From the NCBI GenBank assembly GCA_024278345.1, contig JAJRTK010000428.1, positions 1 to 8,158 on the forward strand: 8,158 bases of DNA, given 5' to 3'. How positions within the stretch are numbered: position 1 is the first letter of the stretch; each line of letters begins with the position of its first letter. Made by a program: the position numbers and the translations under genes. The notes under the pieces are model-generated. The model saw only the letters and a program-made list of their open reading frames with translations. It had not been told where the DNA came from and ran no database searches. Origin of the DNA: a bacterium (lineage in GTDB: Bacteria > CSSED10-310 > JAJRTK01). Of this stretch, positions 326-8,158 are shown in pieces.

Positions 326-1738
326 ATGCCGGTCATTCCAGGGGTCCCCCGCGGGGCATCAGTCATGACGAGTCGGCGCAATGGCCACTCAAGCCAGAAG
401 GGCGCGGCTCTCTGTTTCCTGGTGACTCTCTGGTTCGCGGGTCATCCGCTGGCCGCTCCAGTGGTGGAGTATGAGAGCCTGGAACCCGTGACGGCGAATC
501 TCCGCGCTCCATGCGGTGTGGCTTTCGATTCTAGCGGCAATCTCTTGGTAACGGAATCGAGGCGCGGGCGAATCCTTGTCTATGACGCGAACCACGCCCC
601 CATAAGGACTATCGCCGGTCTCCATCGACCGGTGGCCATCGCCGTGGCTGCTTCAGGGGAGCTTCTGGTTGCCGATGCTGAAACCGGAAGCGTAGAAATC
701 TTCTCCCGATACATGAAACATTTGGGCCGGCTGGGAAGCGGGCTGGGTGAGTTTGGCAGGCCCGTGGGCGTCGCCGCAGGGCTCAACGGCAACATCTATG
801 TGGCTGACGGCGGCAAGAACGAAGTCTCTGTTTACGGCCCTGAACGGGTCCGCCGTTTTTGCTTCGAAAAGCCCGATGGCGGCTTTCGTTCCCTGTCGGC
901 ACTGGCCATCAATGAACAGCTTGGTGAAGTCGTCGTGGCCGACATGCCCACGCTGCAGACTGAGGCCGGCCCGGTAGCGGTCGCTCGGATCCAGACCTTC
1001 GACCTGGAAGGCCGGTTGAGGAGGAGTTTTTTTCTCTCTCCCCCGGAAAGCGGCTCGTGGGTTTACCGGCCCACCGGGCTGGCTGTGGACGGGCGAGGAA
1101 ACCTCTACATCGCCGATGCGCTCCAGCAAGTGGTCCACGTTCTGGACGGAAACGGCAAGGCACTTGGGATCATCCACGAGCCAAGGGCGCCGCTCCGGAG
1201 CCCCCTCGGTGTTGCCATGAGGTCCGACGGGCTTCTTTACGTCGCATCGATGAACGGAGCGGCGGTGCAAGTCTTCCAGGTGAGCATTTCCCCGCCCCTT
1301 AAGGTGACGCCTCTCTCCCTTTCCATTGTGGCATCCCATAGCGAATCTTCCATGCCGTGGCGAAGTGTGCGCCTTTGGAACCACGGCGTAACGAGGATCG
1401 GCTGGTCGATGCAAAATGTGCCGCCCTGGCTCGTCCCCGCCACCCGGTCTGGGTCTCTCCAAGGTTCGTCATGGGTGGATCTGGAGATCAGCATCGACCA
1501 CTGGATGCTCGATCTGGGTAGACATTCAGCTTCGGTAAAAGTCGAGTCGGCCTCCGGGGAGAGCGCCACCTTCAATGTTTACGTGGAGATTGTCGAGGGC
1601 AACCCGGTCCATCGCCTTGGCGACGAAACACCCGGTCTCCTCCTCACTCTGTCCATCCTGCTTGGCCTCTGGATCGTGCTCCGGCGCACCTCCGGAAGCC
1701 GGTCAAGCCCGGGCATCGAAGGGAGTTCGGGGACGTGA
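326..1738 (+). CDS. NHL-repeat beta-propeller protein with Ig/BACON-like domain and C-terminal membrane anchor
   Basis: A 470-residue exported protein. Residues 14-44 form a signal sequence (MTSRRNG basic start, hydrophobic AALCFLVTLWFAG, likely cleavage near PLAA). The start at 326 has a good SD; starting at M14 (365) would give a more ordinary signal length. Six NHL-type blades follow at about 59-97, 99-135, 143-178, 188-235, 247-283 and 290-320. They show the hallmark P-x-G-[VL]-A-[VF]-D then G-N-[IL]-[YL]-[VI]-[AT]-[DE], as in GNIYVAD (155-161) and GNLYIAD (258-264). Residues about 325-423 look like an Ig/BACON-like beta-sandwich (VTPLSLSI, then PPWLVPATRSGSL). Residues 436-452 are a transmembrane helix followed by RR, then a 16-residue polar tail. 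NHL propellers usually bind protein or other ligands rather than catalyse. NHL genes adjoin extracellular cytochrome genes in Geobacter, so a role in assembling or docking the cytochrome encoded next is inferred. Substrate and partner are unknown. Its stop overlaps the next frame by 4 bases. Confidence 0.85.
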   Translation: MPVIPGVPRGASVMTSRRNGHSSQKGAALCFLVTLWFAGHPLAAPVVEYESLEPVTANLRAPCGVAFDSSGNLLVTESRRGRILVYDANHAPIRTIAGLHRPVAIAVAASGELLVADAETGSVEIFSRYMKHLGRLGSGLGEFGRPVGVAAGLNGNIYVADGGKNEVSVYGPERVRRFCFEKPDGGFRSLSALAINEQLGEVVVADMPTLQTEAGPVAVARIQTFDLEGRLRRSFFLSPPESGSWVYRPTGLAVDGRGNLYIADALQQVVHVLDGNGKALGIIHEPRAPLRSPLGVAMRSDGLLYVASMNGAAVQVFQVSISPPLKVTPLSLSIVASHSESSMPWRSVRLWNHGVTRIGWSMQNVPPWLVPATRSGSLQGSSWVDLEISIDHWMLDLGRHSASVKVESASGESATFNVYVEIVEGNPVHRLGDETPGLLLTLSILLGLWIVLRRTSGSRSSPGIEGSSGT

Positions 1739-4700
1739 ATGAGAAAGCGATTTCCAAAGTTTTGGCCGTGAGAGTTTTTCAGGGTAGTGGACCCGTTTTT
1801 TGGGGAATGAGAGGCGAGTGGCGGCGGACGGAGGGGAACTCGCGCCGCAGGCGCGGGTCATGCCGCCGGGAGCGGACTTCAACACAAAGAGAAGCAAGCG
1901 GTTTTCAGCAAGTTTGTTCTGAAGGTGTCCCATGGACCCGGATTTTGATGCTGTTGGTTCTCCTGACTTCTCCCTCCGCGCTCCATGCCCAGAATCGCCA
2001 TTACCCCCACAATGACCTCGCTTCCATCAACTGTACCTCCTGCCACGACATCCACAATGGGCTTCCAAGCCTCCTGATCCCCCACACTTCGATCTATCCC
2101 GACGACACCCCCGCCAACGCTCTTTGCTGGAGCTGCCACAACGATCTGATAGCCCCCTTCCAGAACACCCACTCCAGTAGCAATACCAGCGCACAATATG
2201 GCTCCTGGTCCGTAGAGTGTCGAACCTGCCATGATCCGCACGTGCAGGATCAGTGGGCAGCTTATGGACCAGCCAGTCTGTTGGATTCCGGTAACTCCGA
2301 TGCCATCGATGCCTTCTCCCTGACCTCCCTTGGTGCGGGCTGGAGCCCAAATGAGTTCGCGGTACTCCTGGTCATCCCGAACCTGAATGCCACGACCCAG
2401 AGCTACAGGATTACGGGAAATACGGCTGATACCCTCACTGTGGCGGGTCCAATGGATCTAGGAAATATCACGGCGGGTGACCCATTCGGCATCGCGTATG
2501 GGAAACTCATCGAGGGGAGCATTCCCACGCCAAACAGCGGATCGAAGGAGAACCGGTTTTTTCGCCCCGTCGGGCCCAATAGCTTCGCGGACGGGGATGC
2601 GGTGTACGACGGTGTTTGCGAAGTCTGCCACACCCAGACGGTCTACCACCGGAACGACGATTCAGGAGGAAACCACACTCACAACGTGGGCGTGACCTGT
2701 ACGTCGTGCCACCAGCATATCAATGGGTTCATGGGGATGGGGTCGGGGGCTCACACGACGCATGTCACCGCTCAGTACGGGCCACGGCTGGACTGTGTGG
2801 ACTGCCATGGCGGCAACCAGCCGCCGATGTTGGCGGATGGAGTCGGCCTGGCTGCCACCACCGTTTGCGACAACTGCCACTCGGCGAACGGTGTCGCCAA
2901 TGCCAAGATCTATTGGCCGAATCCGGGGTCGTCCGAAGGGAGCGCTGGGAGTTGGGCTATTGTAGCCGGCCTGGAAAGCTTCTGCGGCAGCTGCCACGAT
3001 TCCGATCCGGGAAACACGGCGCAAGACGGTTCTGGGACCGATGCACCCAATGTCATGGGCGACAACGCCACCTTCGGTTTCTACCGGACGGGACACGGCC
3101 TTGCCGCCGGCAATTACGCCCGCCTCTCCTGGCAAGAGGCCGCGCAAGCGGGAAACCCGGCGGCGAGCAGGAACTGTGGCGACTGCCACCAACTGACGAG
3201 CCAGCATTTTAACAATGGTGCAAGTCGCCTGAAAACCGGATTTGAGAATGACGCGACCAACACCAATTGCATCAATTGTCATCTTCCCGGCACGGCCGAC
3301 GCGCCTCCCGATTTCTTCACGACCTCCGCCGATTTCGAGAATTCGGCTCACGATCTCACGAATCCCCTCACCGCGGCGCCGATGCTCTGCACGGATTGCC
3401 ACGACGTCCACGGTGCCGCTGGCGCGTTCACGGGCATGACCCTGGCGGATGGCGAGCAGCTTTGCTTCGGGTGCCACACCAACGGTCTCCTCCAGAATAA
3501 CGCCATCTCCGGGCCAGGGCTGGCGGACGACATCCAGCAAGCCTTCAGCTTTGCCGACAATGCAAAGCACACCCTTGGTGCCAGTTTCAAGATTGGTGCC
3601 GAGAACTACACGCTGGAATGCGTATCCTGCCACAATGTCCATATTGTAACGGGGAAATACTGGGCCGCCGATCTGGGGGAGAGCCCCGTCACCAGGTTCA
3701 GCACCTTGAGTGCCCCGAATCGGAATCTGGCCGTTTGGGGCGATGGCGCGGGCGAAAAAATGGATGACTACGGGGGTACCTACCGCACGCCCAACGGCGA
3801 TCCCTTCGACGGCTCGCAGCTACCGGACTACAACACGTTCTGCCTCGATTGCCACGAGCCCATGCCTGATCCCGGCGCCGAGGCCGGGGCCCATGGCCAG
3901 ATCCAGTTCGGCGGTGACCCCCACGGCCTCAATTCCGCCAACTCGCCCAACGGAGGAGGCACCTGTCCGGATCGGGGTACCTGTGGCAAGGCCAAGGGTT
4001 GGAACGGTGACGACTGCCTTGGCGATCAGGCCACCTGCTGGCCCGTGCTAACACGCGGAAAAGGCGACCAGCTCTGGTCCAGAGGCCCTTACAACCACGA
4101 GGAGAGGATCGCCGGATCCAATTTTGCGCTCTCCTGCACCGACTGCCACGAGGCTCATGGATCGAGCGTGCGCTCCGCAATTCGAACCAACCCCAACAAC
4201 GGCACTGGCACCACCACCTGGAACAACATGTGCAACAACTGCCATTATTACTACAGCGACTGGCATGCGGGGATGAGTTGCGGCAACGCGAGCTGCCACG
4301 TTTCGGACGGGTCGGATCGGATGGCCTACACCGGAACGGACTCTATCCATCGGATGGGAAACAGGTATGGGACAGGCGCAACCAGGACCTTCGACCCCAC
4401 CCTAGTGCTGGACATGCGTTTCGAAAACAACCTCAACGACTCCGGCACCTGGCGGATGCACGGCAAGTGGTACGACGCGGCGGCGGGGACTTTTACCGCA
4501 GGCAAGAGCGGCCAGGGAATCGTATTGAATGGCGATCAACTGGTCCAAGTGGGAACCAGGAACGCCAGTTGGTCCACGGACGAGAGCGCCCACGGGACCT
4601 GGAAGTACACGGAGCTGAAATATAACGGCACACTGGAGGCCTGGGTCAACCCGACGGATGACCCGGGAACCGAATTCAGCATCTTCACGAAGCACGTAGG

Positions 4701-7677
4701 CTACGGCAACGGAGGATACGCTTTCACGCTACGGGAGATCGGTGGCACTCTCAGAGCCTCCTTCAACTGCCAGATTGACGACAACGCCGGCAGCCAGGGC
4801 GGCGCAGCCGGTGTTCGCGGGGCCTACAGCTCGGTTTCGGTCCCGTTGGATGAATGGACCTATCTGGCGGCGACCTTCGACGCCAACGGTCCAGATCGCG
4901 ATCCCACCGATCCCACCGTCGGTCGGATCCGGATCTACGTCAACGGTGAAGACGTGACGACCAGCGACTCTTCCGGCAACTGGATGCAACCCGGCCCCAA
5001 CGAGACCTCCATCTTCGCCTACACGGAGAACAGCCCTTGGAACCAGGGGATCTGTTACTCTGGTACCTGGTGTGCGTCCGAGTTCTCCATTGGAGGTTTC
5101 ACCTGGCAGAACGGGTTCGTGGGCAGGATCGACGAAGCGAAGGTCTGGAATATTACGAAGGACGCCTCCTACTACGACTCTCAGGTTGCTCCCTTGATCG
5201 TGAGCGTCCAGGTGACACTGGGCGGATCGACGCTGATGGTGACCTTCTCCGAGGGAGTCTATTCGGAGACAGGTGCCACGGGCGACCTGATACCCGGGGA
5301 CTTTACCTTCACGGATTCCGCCGGGCTTACGATCAGCAGCGTCACCCACACGGCAGGCGACTCGACGGCGGCACTCACACTGAGCTCCCTGTTGGATTGC
5401 ACTGACATGGGAAGTGCTACCCTGGCGGCGAAAGATGGCGCGTCTATTTATGACAATGTAAACAGCGCCATGGGGACCGATCCCTCCTTACTGACATCGC
5501 TTTTCTGGATTGCCGGCGTGGAGACCGTCACTGGTTATGACCGGTTGTTTGTTGATTTCTCAGAGGCCGTCTGGTCCAGCCCGGGCCAAACAGGCACCCT
5601 AGTTCCGACCGATCTGGCGCTCACCGATGGAGATGGAAACGGAGCAAAAACTATTTTGAATGTGTCACACTCGGCGGGCGCATCCACCGCTGCCGTGACA
5701 TTGAGTGCTCCCGTGACGGCTTCTGACCTGGGAAGCGATGCGCTTTCAGCGGTCGTTTGTTCCATTTATGATGCCACTGACACGGCCATGGCGGAAGATC
5801 CAGTGACCGTGACGGCGTTACCCGGCACACCCTCAATCAGCTCGGTTCTTGGCGTTGCCGGCCACAATAAGCTGGCGGTCTGGTTCTCCGAACGGGTGTA
5901 CGCGAACCCTGACACGACGGGGGCTTTGCAGAGTGGTGATTTTCTTCTGTCCGCCTCGGGGCAGAGCATTATCGCCGTGGACCACGCGCCGGGCAGTGTC
6001 ACCGCCACCCTCATTCTGGACAGCCCAATTGTGGCTGGCGACATCGGGACCGCGACTCTTGCCGCCACCGGGGGCTCCATCTTCGACGAGACAGGCTACC
6101 CAGCTCCCTCGGACGAAATCGTGACATTGGCCAATGGCCTGGTCTCATCGATAGAAAGTGTCCAGGGGCTTGCCGGTAGCGACAAACTCAAGGTGACTTT
6201 CAAGTCGCAGGTCTATTCAAACGACGACGAGACCGGTCTGCTGATCCCCACGGATTTCCTTCTCACCGACACTGCCGGTGACAATCCAAGGAGCATTTCC
6301 GCTGTTTTTCACGGAGCGGGAAATCGAGTGGCGGTCATCACGATGAGCGCGGTTCTTCTTGCGGCGGATCTCGAAACCGACACGCTGGCGGCGGTCAGTA
6401 GCTCCATCTTTGGCCCCAGCGCCGGCAATTTTCCTCTTGGGACAGCCCCGGTGACAATTACCGCGCAGACTCCGCCCGCTATCGACCGGGTGGAAGGCGC
6501 GGCCGGTTACAACCAGCTAATCGTCGCCTTTGGTGAAGGCGTTTACACGAGCCCCAACCAATCAGGTGCTCTTGTTCCCGCTGACTTTACTGACAGCGAT
6601 CCGGCATGGACAATCACCAATGTCCAGCACGTAGCCGGGCAGTCCAATGCAATCTTGACATTAGATTCGCCACTGGCCGTAGGGGATATAGGTGTCGATA
6701 CAATTGCCGCCGTCAGCGGCGGAATCTACAATAGTATTGACAACCCGGTTGGACCGACTGCCGTGCCGATAGAAGGAAACGATTGCCCAACCTGGGGTAC
6801 GAGCTTTCCCATTGAGAACGAACCACTCAACAGCCCGACCACCGGGGACAACACGGGACTCCTTACCGGAACGCTCAGCAACCCGGCCTTTTCATTTCCA
6901 GCAGCGGACAACGATTGGTTCAATGGCGACGAGAATCAGGCTACCGTCATCGACATCAGCAACTCAGCCTGTCTCAGCTCAACCAGGGCGCTAACGATTG
7001 AAGCGCGAGTTTTTCCCACCGAGGTGGACAGAGGCGTTGGCGACAACACCTTCAACCGGATCTTCGAAAGAAGACGGAATATTTTCGTAACGATTCTGAA
7101 CACTGACTACCGGGGTGATGACATACCGGCACGGGCCAACAAGGCCAGTATCGAGGTGAAGGTTCGCGTTCCCAATGGGGCCGGTGTCCCGCCCAGGCAT
7201 ACCTGTCCCCATCCTCAGTGGCCGGCCGACCCTTATGTCGGGAACGACGTCAGGGCGCACCAGATTTCCTCCGACATCGATCTGTGGCCCATCGTGAACG
7301 GGCACTGGTATCAAATCAGGGTCGTCTTCAATTCCGACAAGGCGAATCTGGCCGCGTCCAATGGAACACCCGTGGATATCTTCATCGACGACCAAGGAGC
7401 GGACGGGCTGAACAGCCCCAATCCCACACCGGGAGATCCAAGCCTGAACCCGAGCTACGAGCAGTGGCCGGGCTATGCAAACGCCAGCAAGTCCATCAAC
7501 GAAAGCTCGAGCTGTCGGTGGGGCGCGTTGCCCGGGGACTTCATCGAATTCAGATCCGACAGCTCACACATTGGCTCCAACTGGGCCAATTCCGGCCAGC
7601 AGTTTGCCGGTCGGATCGACTGGGTCACCTGGAAGCCCGTGGCCGACTATGTGGGAGTAGACGACCCGCCAAACTAG
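1735..7677 (+). CDS. Giant exported multiheme c-type cytochrome (17 heme motifs) fused to LamG, five Ig-like repeats and a second LamG-like domain
   Basis: Frame of 1,980 codons; the true start is uncertain. Residues 68-85 form a signal peptide (TRILMLLVLL, then ALHA before Q86). The 67 residues before it are Arg-rich and unlikely to be translated. Heme-binding CXXCH motifs start at residues 100, 131, 162, 295, 322, 354, 378, 417, 481, 512, 552, 577, 629, 703, 801 and 833; CGNASCH at 849 is a CX4CH variant. Several are followed by xxH (CHDIH, CHDPH, CHDVH, CHNVH, CHEAH), the doubled-CXXCH pattern. Twenty-four further His at residues 89-872 allow bis-His ligation throughout. Residues about 886-1150 are a LamG/ConA-like jelly roll (LEAWVNP, EWTYLAATFD, IRIYVNG, FVGRIDEAKVWN). 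Residues 1154-1680 are five Ig-like repeats. Residues about 1684-1973 resemble a second LamG (LTIEARVFP, HWYQIRVVF, FAGRIDWVTW). No C-terminal anchor is visible. Inferred role: extracellular electron transfer on the cell surface or in the matrix. The GTG start has an SD (GAAGGGAG, 1718-1725) and overlaps the NHL stop, implying translational coupling. An upstream-frame SD/ATG is described separately. No close named homologue is claimed. Confidence 0.88.
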   Translation: MNEKAISKVLAVRVFQGSGPVFWGMRGEWRRTEGNSRRRRGSCRRERTSTQREASGFQQVCSEGVPWTRILMLLVLLTSPSALHAQNRHYPHNDLASINCTSCHDIHNGLPSLLIPHTSIYPDDTPANALCWSCHNDLIAPFQNTHSSSNTSAQYGSWSVECRTCHDPHVQDQWAAYGPASLLDSGNSDAIDAFSLTSLGAGWSPNEFAVLLVIPNLNATTQSYRITGNTADTLTVAGPMDLGNITAGDPFGIAYGKLIEGSIPTPNSGSKENRFFRPVGPNSFADGDAVYDGVCEVCHTQTVYHRNDDSGGNHTHNVGVTCTSCHQHINGFMGMGSGAHTTHVTAQYGPRLDCVDCHGGNQPPMLADGVGLAATTVCDNCHSANGVANAKIYWPNPGSSEGSAGSWAIVAGLESFCGSCHDSDPGNTAQDGSGTDAPNVMGDNATFGFYRTGHGLAAGNYARLSWQEAAQAGNPAASRNCGDCHQLTSQHFNNGASRLKTGFENDATNTNCINCHLPGTADAPPDFFTTSADFENSAHDLTNPLTAAPMLCTDCHDVHGAAGAFTGMTLADGEQLCFGCHTNGLLQNNAISGPGLADDIQQAFSFADNAKHTLGASFKIGAENYTLECVSCHNVHIVTGKYWAADLGESPVTRFSTLSAPNRNLAVWGDGAGEKMDDYGGTYRTPNGDPFDGSQLPDYNTFCLDCHEPMPDPGAEAGAHGQIQFGGDPHGLNSANSPNGGGTCPDRGTCGKAKGWNGDDCLGDQATCWPVLTRGKGDQLWSRGPYNHEERIAGSNFALSCTDCHEAHGSSVRSAIRTNPNNGTGTTTWNNMCNNCHYYYSDWHAGMSCGNASCHVSDGSDRMAYTGTDSIHRMGNRYGTGATRTFDPTLVLDMRFENNLNDSGTWRMHGKWYDAAAGTFTAGKSGQGIVLNGDQLVQVGTRNASWSTDESAHGTWKYTELKYNGTLEAWVNPTDDPGTEFSIFTKHVGYGNGGYAFTLREIGGTLRASFNCQIDDNAGSQGGAAGVRGAYSSVSVPLDEWTYLAATFDANGPDRDPTDPTVGRIRIYVNGEDVTTSDSSGNWMQPGPNETSIFAYTENSPWNQGICYSGTWCASEFSIGGFTWQNGFVGRIDEAKVWNITKDASYYDSQVAPLIVSVQVTLGGSTLMVTFSEGVYSETGATGDLIPGDFTFTDSAGLTISSVTHTAGDSTAALTLSSLLDCTDMGSATLAAKDGASIYDNVNSAMGTDPSLLTSLFWIAGVETVTGYDRLFVDFSEAVWSSPGQTGTLVPTDLALTDGDGNGAKTILNVSHSAGASTAAVTLSAPVTASDLGSDALSAVVCSIYDATDTAMAEDPVTVTALPGTPSISSVLGVAGHNKLAVWFSERVYANPDTTGALQSGDFLLSASGQSIIAVDHAPGSVTATLILDSPIVAGDIGTATLAATGGSIFDETGYPAPSDEIVTLANGLVSSIESVQGLAGSDKLKVTFKSQVYSNDDETGLLIPTDFLLTDTAGDNPRSISAVFHGAGNRVAVITMSAVLLAADLETDTLAAVSSSIFGPSAGNFPLGTAPVTITAQTPPAIDRVEGAAGYNQLIVAFGEGVYTSPNQSGALVPADFTDSDPAWTITNVQHVAGQSNAILTLDSPLAVGDIGVDTIAAVSGGIYNSIDNPVGPTAVPIEGNDCPTWGTSFPIENEPLNSPTTGDNTGLLTGTLSNPAFSFPAADNDWFNGDENQATVIDISNSACLSSTRALTIEARVFPTEVDRGVGDNTFNRIFERRRNIFVTILNTDYRGDDIPARANKASIEVKVRVPNGAGVPPRHTCPHPQWPADPYVGNDVRAHQISSDIDLWPIVNGHWYQIRVVFNSDKANLAASNGTPVDIFIDDQGADGLNSPNPTPGDPSLNPSYEQWPGYANASKSINESSSCRWGALPGDFIEFRSDSSHIGSNWANSGQQFAGRIDWVTWKPVADYVGVDDPPN
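1838..1858. repeat. GC-rich hairpin in the gene 1-gene 2 junction
   Basis: CGCGCC-GCA-GGCGCG forms a near-perfect stem that extends to nine pairs (one G-T wobble at 1840/1856) with the three-base loop GCA. No T-run follows, so it is not an intrinsic terminator. It lies in the part of the cytochrome frame upstream of the signal peptide, which argues that this stretch is a leader rather than coding. In style (short loop, GC-rich stem, GGGTC beside it) it resembles the hairpins at the right end of the window; a shared origin is only a guess. Confidence 0.5.
1921..1934 (+). promoter_or_regulatory. Shine-Dalgarno and ATG that probably mark the real cytochrome start, one base out of frame
   Basis: GAAGG (1921-1925) stands six bases before an ATG at 1932-1934, which is ideal spacing. 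Read as given, this ATG enters the wrong frame (MDPDFDAV). If one G of the GG at 1934-1935 is surplus, the reading becomes MTRILMLLVLLTSPSALHA, a textbook signal peptide continuing into the heme region. An inverted repeat TTCAG (1904-1908) with CTGAA (1919-1923) overlaps the SD and could mask it. Confidence 0.5.
5194..6774 (+). repeat. Five tandem Ig-like protein repeats within the cytochrome gene
   Basis: Residues about 1154-1257, 1258-1364, 1365-1468, 1469-1577 and 1578-1680 align to one plan. Each has a strand with L-x-V-x-F-[SG]-E-x-V-Y, then TG-x-L-x-x-x-DF and V-x-H-x-[AP]-G. These are followed by TA-x-LTL-x-x-[PL], D-[LIM]-[GE]-[ST/VD]-x-[AT]-[LI]-[AS]-A and [SG]-SI-[YF]. This resembles the bacterial Ig-like (Big_5/SbsA-type or SwmB-type) repeats of surface proteins. 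The copies have diverged strongly, so the duplication is old rather than recent. They probably form a stiff stalk between the two jelly-roll domains. Confidence 0.8.
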
Positions 7678-8073
7678 GTTTGGTTGGCCTGGCCTTGGGT
7701 CGGCGGCCACGTTCACGAAAAAGTCCCGGAATCCGCGGCCATCGGTCAGATCTCTTGACCAACGACGCCACCTGATCGCCCATGGACGGCGCGAGATCAG
7801 AAGAGTGCCCAGCCGTGTCAGGAAACAAACGCACGCTCCATCTTCGAGATCCCCATCTCCTTCAAACGCCGGCAGAGAATGATAGAGGAAATCCGAGGTT
7901 GAGGCAGGAGCGAAATCCTGCCGCGCTCCAGCCTTAGGGCAGTGGATCGAAAGCGGCGGCAATGGCGAGCAGCGGGTGGGGCGGGGAACTTGTGCCAAAG
8001 GCAGGTCAAATAAAGCAAAGGGGCCTCGGTCATGGTACCGGCCACCCGAAAAAAGCGCGCAGCGCACAAAGAT
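7678..8073. other. 3' non-coding region downstream of the cytochrome gene
   Basis: I see no convincing gene here. Open frames exist on the minus strand (for example 7564-8067), but they are low-complexity Arg/Pro-rich, overlap the cytochrome end and lack a plausible SD. No intrinsic terminator with a T-run is visible after the stop at 7675-7677. The only early pairing is a weak TGGCC (7685-7689)/GGCCA (7705-7709). One perfect hairpin at 7903-7922 is annotated separately. Confidence 0.5.
7903..7922. repeat. Perfect 7-bp hairpin
   Basis: GGCAGGA and TCCTGCC pair perfectly around the six-base loop GCGAAA. No T-run follows, so it is not a classical intrinsic terminator on the plus strand. It could be a 3' end stabiliser or a dispersed palindromic element. 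Confidence 0.45.
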
Positions 8074-8158
8074 GTGGGTCCAGGGAGCTGGCTCCCTGGC
8101 GTGGGTCTGGGAGCGGCGCTCCCAGCGGAGGTCCGGAGGCAGAGCCTCCGCCGGGTTC
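8074..8158. repeat. Tandem array of three leader-plus-hairpin modules, cut by the window end
   Basis: Three modules recur with a 26-27-base period. Each starts with a shared leader: GTGGGTC at 8074-8080, GTGGGTC at 8101-8107, and the variant GGAGGTC at 8127-8133. Each is followed by or merged with a different perfect stem-loop. Stem 1 is CCAGGGAGC/GCTCCCTGG (8080-8088 with 8091-8099). Stem 2 is CTGGGAGC/GCTCCCAG (8107-8114 with 8118-8125, loop GGC). Stem 3 is CGGAGGC/GCCTCCG (8134-8140 with 8144-8150, loop AGA). GCGGAGG (8125-8131) can alternatively pair with CCTCCGC (8145-8151). Stems differ in sequence but keep pairing, so structure seems conserved. The array probably continues past 8158. 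It resembles dispersed GC-rich palindromic repeats seen between genes in several bacterial groups; no named family is assigned. Confidence 0.65.

Follow-up and report, generated by a model that had tools for sequence, protein, structure and literature searches.

How do extracellular cytochromes stay at their contact site? The conserved family described here makes this question testable, as a chain of heme sites and an apparently lectin-like arm are joined in one polypeptide. The window (the whole stretch of DNA analysed, 8,158 bp) is a complete contig of a 6.06 Mb genome assembled in 550 contigs and 88% complete. It contains two genes oriented in the same direction. The first encodes an NHL-repeat protein and the second a cytochrome whose called start codon, GTG 1735, overlaps the NHL stop codon. 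The cytochrome ORF runs through a single intact frame of 1980 aa (positions 1735-7677), and only 480 bp of contig remain on its 3′ side. The features considered below are as follows, residues being numbered from the called start.

326..1738, + strand: NHL-repeat beta-propeller gene, 470 aa (Pfam NHL, E 1.3e-25)
1801..1906, + strand: dispersed repeat near the 5′ end of the called ORF, spanning about residues 23-58, with at least 39 further copies in the same genome at 80-97% identity
1948..1989, + strand: probable signal-peptide hydrophobic segment, MLLVLLTSPSALHA followed by Q, from direct reading; aligns with the signal peptides of homologues
2008..4350, + strand: 17-heme module (residues 92-872), 16 CXXCH and one CX4CH
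4390..5184, + strand: first LamG (Laminin_G_3) domain (residues 886-1150), PF13385 above cut-off
5185..5505, + strand: Ig-like repeat 1 (residues 1151-1257); homologue profile E 1.1e-30, match 1151-1251
5506..5820, + strand: Ig-like repeat 2 (residues 1258-1362); profile E 1.7e-28, match 1259-1360
5821..6144, + strand: Ig-like repeat 3 (residues 1363-1470); profile E 2.8e-27, match 1365-1463
6145..6465, + strand: Ig-like repeat 4 (residues 1471-1577); profile E 1.3e-30, match 1472-1578; model similar to Ig-like domains from the S-layer proteins SbsC and Sap
6466..6780, + strand: Ig-like repeat 5 (residues 1578-1682); profile E 3.6e-34, match 1578-1680
6781..7647, + strand: C-terminal predicted concanavalin-A-like (jelly-roll) domain (residues 1683-1971), conserved in 12 homologues; fold match

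The explanation we favor, at a probability of about 0.6, is that of a secreted electron-transfer cytochrome held by a lectin-like arm, with the NHL protein as a partner. The protein would be secreted or exposed at the cell surface, its N-terminal 17-heme chain carrying electrons between an outer-membrane conduit and an acceptor or donor on the outside. The C-terminal portion (LamG, five Ig spacers and the second ConA-like domain) would serve as a binding or retention arm that fixes the wire in place, its most likely target being an extracellular polysaccharide or glycoprotein of the producer's surface matrix, of a partner's, or of a mineral coating. The NHL propeller, with its C-terminal membrane helix, would act as the surface partner of the cytochrome. 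If this is true, the surface wires of some bacteria may also serve for attachment.

Gene start, contig integrity and neighboring genes

The start assigned to the cytochrome gene is doubtful. The stretch at about residues 17-60 of the called ORF recurs at some 25 further sites in the genome, many of them interrupted by internal stops. The underlying DNA, the GC-rich repeat at 1801-1906, separates the NHL gene from the cytochrome gene and has been absorbed into the called ORF. On this sequence evidence, the first 60 to 70 called residues represent an in-frame reading of dispersed repeat DNA, and the repeat itself is probably an untranslated leader, not protein. The hydrophobic segment begins at residue 72 (ATG 1948, preceded by TTG 1945), and the true start probably lies near residue 70, at one of these two codons. 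Thus, with residues 17-60 falling inside a dispersed repeat, the cytochrome is probably about 1,910 aa long, not 1,980. The segment does not have the usual basic residues, and an alternative translation start inside the repeat is possible.

The possibility that the C-terminal part belongs to a separate gene, joined to the first by an assembly error, could be excluded because homologues are collinear in single frames. Since the heme module, LamG, Ig and the C-terminal domain follow one another within a single frame in independent assemblies, a chimera is ruled out. A foreign contig in the genome bin is unlikely, since both dispersed repeats of the window are common to tens of other contigs of the same genome; the similar base composition of contig and genome also counts against it. 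The second of these repeats occupies positions 8030-8158, is 129 bases long and contains strong hairpins (fold z -3.0). At least 39 further copies, 99-100% identical, are scattered through the genome, very often at contig ends, and such a near-identical, high-copy repeat probably breaks the assembly.

Within the window, hence the whole contig, no conduit gene (porin or periplasmic cytochrome) accompanies the NHL and cytochrome genes. The NHL protein ends with a hydrophobic helix followed by Arg residues. NHL genes lie directly upstream of the cytochrome in the window and at two homologous loci (L010 and L063), their products sharing 31-39% identity (31-33% for the L010 and L063 genes), and NHL genes have been reported beside extracellular electron-transfer cytochromes (PMC10734462, PMC9769857, PMC12016550). 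The NHL gene is thus a probable partner gene of the cytochrome. An NHL or porin neighbor is missing at several homologous loci, and no cluster of porin and periplasmic cytochrome was seen beside the homologues. Further multiheme loci occur in the same genome. One (L035, contig C37, 1132-7912) encodes a 21-heme cytochrome, an NHL protein, a 609-aa probable outer-membrane barrel and a second NHL protein. The barrel protein has no Pfam match and was recognized solely by the character of its sequence; the cluster could conceivably supply the conduit partner of the window cytochrome. Another (L036, contig C40, 2-7799) is a second gene set with NHL-Ig, 4-heme and 7-heme products. Its 7-heme frame, 1,362 aa long, has an fn3-like stretch ahead of the hemes, placing beta domains on the N-terminal side.

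The heme module and its relatives

The sequence-only reading had proposed 17 heme sites spread over residues 100-855, less than half of the protein. A motif scan bore this out, with 16 CXXCH motifs and one CX4CH (CGNASCH at 849). The more than 1,000 further residues said to be devoid of heme are indeed so, no CXXCH being found in the last 1,125 residues of the cytochrome. Three Pfam families, Paired_CXXCH_1 (E 1e-17), Cytochrom_c3_2 and Cytochrome_C7, scored above cut-off in the module. PF09699 reached 64 bits against a gathering score of 20.6, which places the protein among doubled-CXXCH multiheme cytochromes; PF14537 reached 44.1 bits (gathering score 25) and PF14522 42.5 (24.8). When 11 complete members were aligned on the window protein's 17 heme columns, 13 columns were kept in 11/11, three in 10/11 and one in 7/11. 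Nearly all 11 members also share 16 to 17 further histidines, one apparently displaced by a single residue in the window protein. This is the number needed for bis-His ligation of 17 hemes and supports the idea that the hemes are probably ligated in this way; the 17 sites themselves are presumably loaded.

A sequence-profile search of the PDB with the heme module found no informative relative, only short CXXCH stretches aligning weakly with nitrite reductases, and the solved filament cytochromes gave no sequence match to the window protein. The protein does not belong to the OmcA/MtrC family by the NCBIfam models or PF22113, and has 17 sites against the ten hemes expected there. Nor is it a DmsE/MtrA-type decaheme protein, TIGR03508 scoring 51.4 bits against a curated cut-off of 192.2. 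An AlphaFold model of the module was unusable (pLDDT 29.5, no hemes, nine alignment rows). Electron transfer, already claimed from the family, is well supported by these family matches; secretion would likewise follow from the family. The predicted signal peptide counts for a secreted or surface protein, as does the C-terminal end, where direct reading revealed no apparent transmembrane segment, lipobox or sorting signal.

A scan of a genome-contig collection turned up relatives in four MAGs. Full-length ones occur as two copies in L010, which is gammaproteobacterial, as a tandem pair in the Nitrospiraceae MAG L011 (isolate SURF_66) and as a tandem array of three in L012, another MAG from Nitrospirae; the relative in the Desulfobulbus MAG L013 is partial. 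In a second search, a profile of the heme end and first LamG was run against sampled genomes. It matched 7/395 genomes of Nitrospirota, the phylum of L011, 6/395 of Desulfobacterota, the phylum of L013 (the LamG part in three only), and 1/369 of Gammaproteobacteria, the class of L010. Among 60 relatives, including seven other genomes of the source organism's phylum, no homologue was found outside the source genome itself. The distribution of the family is thus patchy across several phyla, subsurface Nitrospirota included. In a small tree of 13 rows with long branches, the window protein clusters (99/99) with both gammaproteobacterial copies and a single copy from Nitrospiraceae, away from most Nitrospirota. 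This grouping across phyla suggests gene transfer between them.

The union of heme module, jelly-roll, Ig and second jelly-roll in one polypeptide, as first read from the window, is repeated in those complete members that retain a tail. The same order, in single frames and with one Ig repeat, was found in Nitrospirota, Gammaproteobacteria and Desulfobacterota. Departures from it were also seen: L012c diverges after its Ig repeat, the L063 member is longer and includes a beta-helix region, and the L066 member has several LamG domains. The latter (G677, of the L013 phylum, 9634-19901) is an uninterrupted frame roughly 4,788 residues long, with Ig repeats, four or more LamG stretches and at least 15 CXXCH in the part examined. 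The Desulfobulbus member (L013, 3458-6856) retains the heme end as well as Ig and the C-terminal domain, is missing the first LamG and carries N-terminal TSP type 3 repeats.

Several relatives lie in tandem arrays of giant cytochromes, which have the heme N-module in common (31-41% identity) and vary in their tips:

L059, 4962-20000
L062, 6573-19001
L012, 1074-18034
L011, 475-10397

The C-terminal parts include Golvesin_C with LamG (L012a), Kelch (L012b), a right-handed beta-helix (L059, L062) and Big_5 (L062); that of the L059 paralogue has additional C4xC/CXXCH heme repeats. From sequence, it looks as if one conductor had taken many tips, and these arm-swapping paralogues are natural variants for comparison. 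A broader view, which we regard as tentative and rather doubtful, is that of a cross-phylum family, a "wire with a grip", in which tandem arrays combine a conserved heme conductor with interchangeable tips for target binding (LamG-Ig-LamG, beta-helix, Kelch, Golvesin), each wire being addressed to a different surface.

The same paralogues bear on the possibility that the arm specifically grips a partner cell or mineral, docking being what makes electrical contact. Target-specific tips would vary as these C-terminal modules do (beta-helix, Big_5, Golvesin, Kelch, LamG-Ig-LamG), and the five-fold Ig stalk of the window member, against one repeat in the others, points the same way. A parallel exists in the MHC-C cytochromes of ANME archaea, for whose pectin-lyase-like domain the authors propose partner recognition (PMC9012536). 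However, variable modules would fit differing own matrices too, and we consider such dedicated docking rather unlikely.

The non-heme arm

The Laminin_G_3 family (PF13385) matches residues 963-1087 of the window protein (E 1.9e-10, 41.5 bits against a gathering score of 27.6) and the first LamG of 13/13 members, with a mean column identity of 60% across phyla. A profile search of the PDB linked this domain weakly to one of the domains in arabinanase AbnA (5hon, E 1e-4). The C-terminal domain (residues 1683-1971) has no Pfam match in the window protein and a mean column identity of 52% across phyla; its profile link to the first LamG is weak (probability 14%). In the predicted model of the C-terminal region, itself weak (mean pLDDT 44.7), this domain matched ConA-like folds, namely CBM40, pentraxin, the TSP-1 N-domain and the LamG domain of AbnA, with modest Z values of 6-7.5 and an rmsd of about 4 A over 115-147 residues. 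Of the two jelly-rolls predicted from sequence, the second shows these modest fold matches in the low-confidence model, and the fold of the first, at 886-1150, was not confirmed there. The fold matches also included clostridial neurotoxin binding domains, which have only the jelly-roll fold in common with this domain and imply no kinship; a PDB profile match of the C-terminal domain to Der p 2 (E 0.4) was attributed to chance.

The Ig profile was built from the single Ig copies of ten homologues, and it recognized all five repeats of the window protein, each with E <1e-26. Five homologous repeats are, by this sequence comparison, certain. The proposed five-Ig stalk thus stands for the window member but not for the family, since the compared homologues have one repeat at that position. 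The five share 35-49% identity with one another and are about equally far from the homologues' single copies, which argues, on sequence divergence, that the expansion is old and not an assembly artefact.

Modeling of the Ig region gave S-layer proteins SbsC and Sap as the best Ig fold matches (Z about 9-10; 8-10 over the region), covering repeats 4-5 only and at modest pLDDT; one homologue showed a weak match to SWM_repeat. Such a resemblance would be expected if the arm were an assembly or surface-layer module whose Ig and jelly-roll domains packed against further copies of the same domains or against an envelope layer, setting the heme domain in a lattice with no external target. The missing membrane anchor would agree with this, as would the fusions of cytochrome and S-layer domains described for ANME archaea (PMC9012536). 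We think it unlikely nonetheless: the S-layer Ig is a very common Ig type, model confidence is modest, and Pfam found no SLH or other S-layer anchoring domain in the window protein. Moreover, a pair of ConA-like domains is more in keeping with ligand binding than with contacts in a lattice.

Least probable is a passive passenger acquired by domain shuffling, which would only extend the protein and have no binding role; LamG- and Ig-type modules are frequent in large secreted bacterial proteins and the Ig copy number varies from 1 to 5, but a passenger would not need the conservation of LamG1 and the C-terminal domain across phyla. Returning to the favored retention arm, binding and the identity of what is bound are plausible from fold only, and LamG/Ig modules can equally hold a protein on its own matrix or act as spacers or assembly domains. 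As the protein itself carries no anchor, we place retention on the producer's matrix at least level with partner docking.

Comparison with known systems

MtrC and OmcA are outer-surface decaheme cytochromes that mix heme and beta domains. The window protein resembles them as a predicted extracellular multiheme protein of this mixed build and differs in having 17 sites against 10 hemes, and in that its beta domains are LamG and Ig. With the nanowire cytochromes OmcS, OmcE and OmcZ it shares a multiheme character and predicted secretion; it departs from them in its larger number of hemes and its long non-heme arm, and gave no sequence match to the solved filament forms. Genes of the OmcE type can occur with NHL genes (PMC12016550). 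The PCC3 cytochromes and the Uet pathway likewise comprise large extracellular multiheme proteins, with NHL-repeat proteins in the Uet clusters (PMC10734462). The source genome has its 21-heme/NHL/putative beta-barrel/NHL cluster on another contig. Unlike PCC3/Uet genes, the window gene has no adjacent porin or periplasmic cytochrome before the contig ends, and the paper mentions neither LamG nor laminin (PMC10734462).

A likeness in design also exists with cytochrome types A, B and C of ANME archaea. As described in passages of PMC9012536, these are very large extracellular proteins fused to S-layer or pectin-lyase-like domains, for which the authors propose layer crossing or partner recognition. 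They share with the window protein the fusion of an extracellular cytochrome to non-heme surface domains, and the beta-helix tips of the bacterial paralogues recall the pectin-lyase-like domain of MHC-C. Likened here by description, they differ in being archaeal, in their other fused domains, in their 20-80 hemes and in the transmembrane helices of A and B; the passages concerned mention no LamG or Ig stalk (PMC9012536). A search limited to open-access full text returned no LamG-multiheme fusion. Cytochromes joined to non-heme surface modules being already known from ANME archaea (types A-C), the bacterial 17-heme module with its LamG-Ig-ConA arm is a variant of that design.
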